In this document: in pieces, positions 8,150 to 9,798 of the stretch | Layout: every line of letters starts with the position of its first letter | How positions within the stretch are numbered: position 1 is the first letter of the stretch | Origin: Clostridia bacterium | GTDB taxonomy: Bacteria > Acidobacteriota > Terriglobia > Terriglobales > Acidobacteriaceae | Direction: 5' to 3' | Assembly (NCBI GenBank): GCA_035561135.1 | Contig: DATMYA010000014.1 | Location: 1-64,000 of the forward strand | DNA: 64,000 nt | The notes under the pieces: generated by a model | Seen by the model: only the letters and a program-made list of their open reading frames with translations | Databases searched by the model: none | Told to the model about the DNA's origin: nothing | Made by a program: the position numbers and the translations under genes

Positions 8150-8178
8150 TTGACGTAAGTAGATCCTTGCTTCACAAT
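8150..8178 (+). promoter_or_regulatory. Predicted sigma-70 promoter of the riboswitch-protease transcript
   Basis: -35 TTGACG (5/6 match) at 8150-8155 and -10 CACAAT (4/6) at 8173-8178 with an exact 17-bp spacer. Transcription would begin near 8185, only a few bases before the aptamer stem P1 at 8192. That agreement with the riboswitch boundary supports the call. Confidence 0.6.
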
Positions 8179-8190
8179 CCCCACCGCTCA

Positions 8191-8282
8191 ACCGCACGAA
8201 AAGGCAAACCACCTGCAGGTGGGGACGCAAAGCCGCGGGTCTCTCCCTCTCCCTGAGAGACAGCCAGGCTGCCGAATGCGGA
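8191..8282 (+). ncRNA. GEMM / cyclic-di-GMP-I class riboswitch aptamer
   Basis: The hallmark GEMM blocks occur in order: GGCAAACC, a short P2 hairpin (CCACC 8209-8213 with GGTGG 8218-8222), GGACGCAAAGCC (8223-8234), a second hairpin (GTCTCTC 8239-8245 with GAGAGAC 8255-8261), then AGCCAGGCTGCCGA. The ends close as P1 (CCGCA 8192-8196 with TGCGG 8277-8281). This matches the known c-di-GMP-I aptamer layout. The base two before the C of GGCAAACC is G, as in c-di-GMP binders; variants with A there tend to bind cGAMP. It sits 41 nt before the protease ATG. I see no terminator hairpin between them, so control may be translational. Confidence 0.88.
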
Positions 8283-8322
8283 GTTCCGCTTAACTACTTC
8301 AGCAGTCAAGGATCAGGCGACC

Positions 8323-9657
8323 ATGAAAAGGCTTTCTCTTCTTCTTGCCGTAGTCCTGGTGCTTTCGCTTAGCGCATTCAGCGCACAACATATTGTCAGG
8401 TTTGCAAACGGAATTCCAACGAACTTCGCTGCTCGTGTGAATGCGCTTGGCGGCACAGTCGTAACCCAACATCCATTGCTCGCCGTCGTTGAGGGACTAA
8501 GTCCCGAAGCAGCAGCGACTCTCCGCGGCAGCTTCGGCGTCTCAGAGGTGAACACGGATGCCGAGTTCACACTCGACGCTTCAACCGGCGAAACCACTCA
8601 GGCGGACTCTACACCGACGAGTGTGTCCAACCCTGCGACCGCCTTCTTCTACCCCCGTCAGTGGCATATGCGCGCGATCGGCACGCCGTATGCCTGGGCG
8701 GCCGGACGCCTCGGCTCGCCCAACGTCACCGTCGCGATCATTGATAGCGGCATCGATTACACCTATCCGGACCTAAACGGCCTGATCGATCTCAGCCGCT
8801 CGGTATCGTTCCAGCCCGCTGAGGACGCAGTTGTCGCCGCGACCTTCCCCGGAAAGAATCCCGTCACCGACATCTATTTTCACGGCACGCATGTTGCCCA
8901 CACCGTGGCGAGCAAGGCTGCTGTCGCGGCGGGTGTCACTTCCAAAGTGACCCTGATCGGCGTGAAGGTGCTTGCTTATAAGCCCTCAACGGGTAGTGCG
9001 AGCGGTTTGCTCTCGGCAGTGCTGAACGGTATCCTCTGGGCGGCCGATCACGATGCCGACGTCGCAAACATGAGCCTTGGCGGAGGTTTCAGTAAGGTAG
9101 CCGCCGGCCCATACGTCAGCCTGATCAATTCTGTTTTTGCCTATGCATATCGTAAGGGCATGCTGATTGTCGTCTCCGCCGGCAATGAGGCGAGCGACCT
9201 CGATCACAATGGTAACTACTACTCCACATACTGCAGTTCGCCGCATGTTGTCTGCGTGGCGGCTACAGGTCCAACATCGTCTGCCGGCACCAATGGTCCA
9301 TGGGTCAACGTCGACGCGGCCGCGTACTACACGAACTTCGGCCGATCGGCAATCGACATCGCCGCTCCAGGTGGCAACACCGGCGGTTACGTATATCAGG
9401 GCTGCTCGCAAACCTCCGTCTACCTTCCCGTCTGCCGGACTGGCACATATGTGATTGGCTCGATGGGGACTTCGATGGCCTCTCCTCTCGTCTCTGGGCT
9501 TGCTGCTCTACTCGTCGAAGACATCGGCAAGGACAAGCCCTCGGAAGTGAAGGCGCGCCTGTTGCAGTCTGCCGATGATCTCGGCCAACCCGGTACCGAC
9601 CCATACTATGGCAAAGGTCGCATCAACGTGCCGCACGCCATCGGCATCTCCTACTAA
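8323..9657 (+). CDS. Secreted subtilisin-like serine protease (S8 family)
   Basis: A 444-aa pre-pro-protease. Residues 1-21 form a Sec signal peptide (MKRLSLLLAVVLVLSLSAFS). Residues about 22-85 resemble a subtilase inhibitor prodomain. The catalytic triad is visible: Asp141 in VAIIDSGID, His187 in HGTHVAH, Ser384 in GTSMASPLVSG. No C-terminal anchor or sorting domain is seen, so it is probably released to the periplasm or medium. The ATG at 8323 has a weak AAGGA ribosome site about 10 nt upstream. It is a single-gene transcript behind a c-di-GMP-type riboswitch and before a strong terminator, so its expression is probably tied to a lifestyle signal such as surface attachment or dispersal. 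Confidence 0.93.
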   Translation: MKRLSLLLAVVLVLSLSAFSAQHIVRFANGIPTNFAARVNALGGTVVTQHPLLAVVEGLSPEAAATLRGSFGVSEVNTDAEFTLDASTGETTQADSTPTSVSNPATAFFYPRQWHMRAIGTPYAWAAGRLGSPNVTVAIIDSGIDYTYPDLNGLIDLSRSVSFQPAEDAVVAATFPGKNPVTDIYFHGTHVAHTVASKAAVAAGVTSKVTLIGVKVLAYKPSTGSASGLLSAVLNGILWAADHDADVANMSLGGGFSKVAAGPYVSLINSVFAYAYRKGMLIVVSAGNEASDLDHNGNYYSTYCSSPHVVCVAATGPTSSAGTNGPWVNVDAAAYYTNFGRSAIDIAAPGGNTGGYVYQGCSQTSVYLPVCRTGTYVIGSMGTSMASPLVSGLAALLVEDIGKDKPSEVKARLLQSADDLGQPGTDPYYGKGRINVPHAIGISY

Positions 9658-9676
9658 AACGTAAGCAAGTTGAAGG

Positions 9677-9705
9677 GGAGGACAGCTTCGCTGTCCTCCT
9701 TTTTT
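9677..9705 (+). terminator. Intrinsic terminator of the subtilisin gene
   Basis: Perfect 10-bp stem GGAGGACAGC / GCTGTCCTCC (9677-9686, 9690-9699) with a TTC loop, followed by six T (9700-9705). It lies 20 bp past the protease stop codon. Confidence 0.92.
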
Positions 9706-9798
9706 CGTTTCCAAGCAGTTGAAGAGACACTGTCACTGCAACAAGTGATATCGGAACACCGAACGAACTGCGGGTGCAGCTAGAATTTGTCTTCGCGA

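Follow-up and report, generated by a model that had tools for sequence, protein, structure and literature searches.

A c-di-GMP class I (GEMM-I) riboswitch located in a monocistronic 5' leader probably sets the output of the only subtilase encoded in the analysed genome; we assign this reading a probability of roughly 0.8. Across the phylum, probably Acidobacteriota judging by its gene content, GEMM-I aptamers have probably become linked to genes for secreted subtilases on several independent occasions. One of them is the case described here, whose nearest (Gemmatimonadota) relatives have no riboswitch, so extracellular proteolysis controlled by c-di-GMP directly at the RNA level seems to be a repeated solution. 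If this is true, a second messenger of the sessile/motile switch is tied directly, without a protein regulator, to the secretion of a degradative enzyme. The features of the locus, which lies in a stretch of 64,000 nucleotides (the window), are collected in Table 1.

Table 1. Features of the riboswitch-subtilase locus (positions within the window)
Feature	Position	Strand	Basis or detail
Promoter-like site TTGACG-17 nt-CACAAT, predicted start near 8185	8150..8178	+	consensus scan, 9/12
GATCCTTG, perfect complement of Shine-Dalgarno segment 8307-8314	8162..8169	+	8-nt match in 1.6% of shuffles
c-di-GMP-I aptamer	8193..8276	+	RF01051; specificity base G8203 (Vc2 G20), core GCAAA 8227-8231, CCG 8272-8274
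P1b hairpin CCACC-UGCA-GGUGG, loop not GNRA	8209..8222	+	sequence
P2 hairpin GUCUCUC...GAGAGAC, without tetraloop receptor	8239..8261	+	sequence
Candidate expression platform hairpin GGCUGC.GAA.GCGG/CCGC.UUC.GCAGUC, reusing P1 3' strand	8267..8307	+	RNAfold
Shine-Dalgarno-like AAGGA	8308..8312	+	sequence
Secreted subtilase (Peptidase_S8), 444 aa: signal peptide, propeptide-length segment, catalytic domain	8323..9657	+	PF00082, 142.7 bits
Intrinsic terminator 3' of the subtilase gene, hairpin and T run	9672..9706	+	hairpin energy, -23.3 kcal/mol

The aptamer and the gene it precedes

Infernal cmscan matched the c-di-GMP-I family (GEMM-I, RF01051) over the full model length with 52.1 bits, against a gathering cut-off of 35 (E 2.7e-7 for the 64-kb window searched with the 4227 families of Rfam 15). 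It is the sole gathering-level Rfam match in the window and the single GEMM-I in the whole genome (4.19 Mb in 95 contigs). The blocks AAAAGGCAAACC, GACGCAAAGCC and CUGCCGAA, which form the ligand pocket, agree with the RF01051 consensus in the cmscan alignment; we take the conserved pocket blocks of GEMM-I to be those containing G20, A47 and C92 of Vc2. The initial annotation of this DNA, which proposed a GEMM-type riboswitch at this place, is therefore borne out, although it went too far in listing every GEMM block and stem as present. The aptamer shares with RF01051 the core sequence, the P1/P1b/P2 order, the G at position 20 and the location upstream of a secreted-protein gene, but it has a UGCA loop instead of GNRA in P1b, it lacks the CUAA-type receptor looked for in P2, and one pair of P1 is broken by a C8236.A8266 mismatch. 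The P1 mismatch together with the missing tetraloop docking, a trait frequent but not universal in the class, could make ligand binding weak.

The same deviations, i.e. the P1 mismatch and the missing GNRA/receptor pair, along with a score below that of many relatives, might suggest a decaying relic that has lost its regulatory role. We consider this very improbable, as every core block forming the ligand pocket is intact at 52 bits and the spacing to a real gene is correct. Moreover, the receptor is also missing in most of the relative aptamers linked to S8 peptidases, and a crude string test found no CTAA at the receptor place in 50 of the 70 surveyed GEMM-I matches above the cut-off.

The ATG of the subtilase gene is situated 46 nt past the aptamer end, on the same strand. 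Its product opens with a Sec-type signal-peptide-like sequence (MKRLSLLLAVVLVLSLSAFSA) and contains the Asp, His and Ser motifs IIDSGID, HGTHVA and GTSMASP; among solved structures the nearest chain is 9rk9_B, and the best matches are subtilisin-like proteases. The PF00082 match, the signal-like start and the strong hairpin behind the gene agree with the earlier description of one downstream Sec-exported protease gene with its own terminator. This is the one S8 peptidase gene of the whole genome, and it adjoins the sole GEMM-I. The upstream neighbours, an RND adaptor and a permease, both divergently oriented, and the downstream neighbour, a DMSO-reductase-type molybdoenzyme, complete the locus.

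Transcript start and sign of control

The sigma-70-like site listed in Table 1 is the only promoter candidate on the forward strand, and it is a weak one, little above chance, with 2 sites of this quality in 2 kb versus 0.8 expected. A sigma-54 promoter was rejected for the window, where the best site scored 6/10 and lacked the GG. In eight leaders of another family, f19 (L059, L083, L084, L085, L086, L087, L089, L092), a common sigma-54-like TGGCAC-N5-TTGC ends 12-16 nt before the aptamer, which puts the predicted transcript start at the aptamer.

A start upstream of 8160 would create a different switch. The 8-nt GATCCTTG complements CAAGGATC (8307-8314) across the Shine-Dalgarno sequence and is included in the transcript only if transcription begins upstream of the predicted start; in such a leader GAUCCUUG would pair with CAAGGAUC in an additional P0 helix, and the closed aptamer would hide the Shine-Dalgarno sequence, giving a translational OFF switch. 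Such a perfect 8-bp complement is reached in 1.6% of shuffles, and the Shine-Dalgarno sequence is only 2-8% unpaired when the aptamer fold is forced on RNA 8150-8345. However, the consensus promoter places the complement within its own spacer, and in the longer RNA CCCCACC pairs with P1b, after which the aptamer costs about 8 kcal/mol. We therefore regard the longer leader as unlikely.

The preferred reading is a riboswitch transcribed from the predicted start. As no intrinsic terminator was found between the aptamer and the start codon, control is most likely translational (or acts through RNA stability or Rho). Binding of c-di-GMP would keep the P1 3' strand inside the aptamer and prevent formation of the downstream hairpin that reuses this strand; loss of the hairpin would in turn alter the accessibility of the ribosome-binding site, which lies about 30 nt further 3', and the amount of subtilase made and exported would follow. 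RNAfold predictions for RNA starting at 8185 allow GGCUGC (8267-8272) to be released from the aptamer and to form a helix with GCAGUC (8302-8307), immediately upstream of AAGGA. Folding the aptamer costs about 1 kcal/mol for RNA ending at 8276-8283 and 3.6 once the RNA reaches 8345, and this rise during transcription of the hairpin counts in favour of riboswitch control.

Other results count against the model. The complementarity of the anti-aptamer helix is no stronger than in shuffles (p 0.58), and the Shine-Dalgarno sequence is nearly equally accessible in both predicted folds, so the folds themselves set no sign. The anti-aptamer test extended over 77 leaders gave a mean z of -0.67, with nothing for the window. 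Furthermore, the genus is represented by one genome only. The eight f19 relatives have a hairpin between the aptamer 3' end and the Shine-Dalgarno sequence, in the same layout as the window; since compensatory (both-sided) changes at some of its pairs occur alongside several broken cells, the support drawn from this hairpin is moderate.

As regards the direction of control, we lean slightly, and mainly by analogy, towards repression at high c-di-GMP. The analogy is with zmpI of Clostridioides difficile (PPEP-1, CD630_28300), which encodes a secreted protease and has a class I c-di-GMP riboswitch in its leader, as in the window (PMC6366702). On the other hand, zmpI encodes a metalloprotease of a Gram-positive bacterium and is repressed by c-di-GMP, whereas the window contains an S8 serine protease gene whose leader has no terminator.

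Ligand

At the base corresponding to Vc2 position 20 the window has a G, which, together with the canonical GGDEF proteins of the genome, predicts c-di-GMP rather than cGAMP as the ligand. Vc2 position 20 was mapped to model position 11, because two pilM-linked aptamers (L054, L058) have an A there, as Geobacter pilM leaders do, and because the following position shows the pattern of a paired base (G-C, or C-G in f19). At this specificity position all 13 of the 13 S8-linked aptamers have G, while both pilM-linked ones have A. This is in line with the A20G substitution in a Geobacter GEMM-Ib riboswitch, which switched the ligand to c-di-GMP (PMC6456294). The Geobacter GEMM-Ib riboswitches have the same fold and likewise control extracytoplasmic proteins, but they carry A at position 20 and bind cGAMP (PMC6456294); the window aptamer, having no A at this position, would fall outside that subclass.

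Six GGDEF domains were found in the genome, four of them with GHxxGD, one (L114) with GHLVGS and GGDEF, i.e. the Hypr (cGAMP synthase) signature, and one (L116) giving no match in the motif search. A domain search of the genome found no EAL domain; it contains five HD_5 domains, candidates for HD-GYP-type phosphodiesterases, which along with the six GGDEF domains make c-di-GMP turnover plausible.

The Hypr-type protein, combined with the occurrence of A20-type aptamers (L010, L012) in kin genomes of the same family, raises the alternative that the aptamer senses cGAMP instead of, or besides, c-di-GMP. We find this improbable given the G at 8203 and the effect of A20G in Geobacter (PMC6456294), even though position 20 has been described as a selectivity factor and no hard filter (PMC9262584). 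By eye, the two A20-type (cGAMP-like) aptamers precede genes for a papain-like protein (L010, 277-1320, reverse strand) and a small exported aspartyl-protease-like protein (L012, 945-1433, reverse strand).

Recurrence of the pairing in the phylum

Neither the riboswitch class nor its association with a secreted protease is new; of more interest is the recurrence of the pairing between riboswitch and subtilase. A literature search covering mainly open-access papers returned none of relevance on GEMM-I or c-di-GMP riboswitches combined with subtilisin, subtilase or peptidase.

At E up to 0.001, GEMM-I was detected in 14 of the 200 genomes sampled from the family, 18 of the 298 from the order and 42 of the 297 from the phylum; these samples overlap. 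The likely downstream protein of each match was picked mechanically, a choice that failed in a few cases at contig edges. Of these proteins, 65 were scanned against Pfam. The commonest domain was Peptidase_S8 (13/65), followed by CAP (7) and PilM (4), and many of the others looked secreted. At a generous gene share of 0.5%, about 0.3 S8 proteins would be expected among 65; the corresponding binomial value of 1.6e-17 ignores kinship and is no true probability. The S8-linked aptamers come from five families (f1, f10, f19, f38 and f51), so the pairing also occurs in four families of the phylum besides that of the window, and 8 of the 13 belong to f19. The 11 genomes concerned have from 1 to 24 S8 matches each, with exactly one in the window genome.

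The f19 loci resemble the window in having GEMM-I 26-45 nt before the gene of an exported S8 peptidase, with a hairpin between the aptamer and the Shine-Dalgarno sequence, but differ in the S8 clade, in the sigma-54-like promoter and in the inner core pair, which is C-G there and G-C in the window. A tree built from 69 S8 domains places the window protein, with full support, as sister to Gemmatimonadota proteins and far from the riboswitch-linked group of f19, f51 and f10; the riboswitch label needs four changes on this tree. No close homologue of the subtilase (E up to 1e-40) was found in 99 other genomes of the family. Rfam scanning of six subtilase-homologue loci (L016-L019, L021, L025) returned nothing, the three Gemmatimonadota loci have no GEMM-I (L017 is cut at the contig start), and a GEMM-I search of the genomes of the phylum homologues (L064-L080) found no match beside any of them. 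The separate S8 branch and the riboswitch-free homologues suggest that the link in the window probably arose independently. Recurrence across families makes the on/off effect of c-di-GMP on extracellular proteolysis testable, with several independent leaders to compare.

Other arrangements were also observed. Several same-family genomes have a high-scoring GEMM-I flanked by TonB/ExbD-like genes on one side and by a gene for a large exported protein on the other (L002-L005), and in family f22 GEMM-I precedes the gene of a secreted CAP-domain protein, in most cases with an ispE-like gene behind it (L061, L062, L096-L098, L101, L105). One GEMM-I (L007, G023:C19) comes from a G+C-rich contig of 3 kb that appears to be a contaminant of its assembly. 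At four loci (L053, L055, L060, L039) tandem GEMM-I aptamers are located upstream of one gene.
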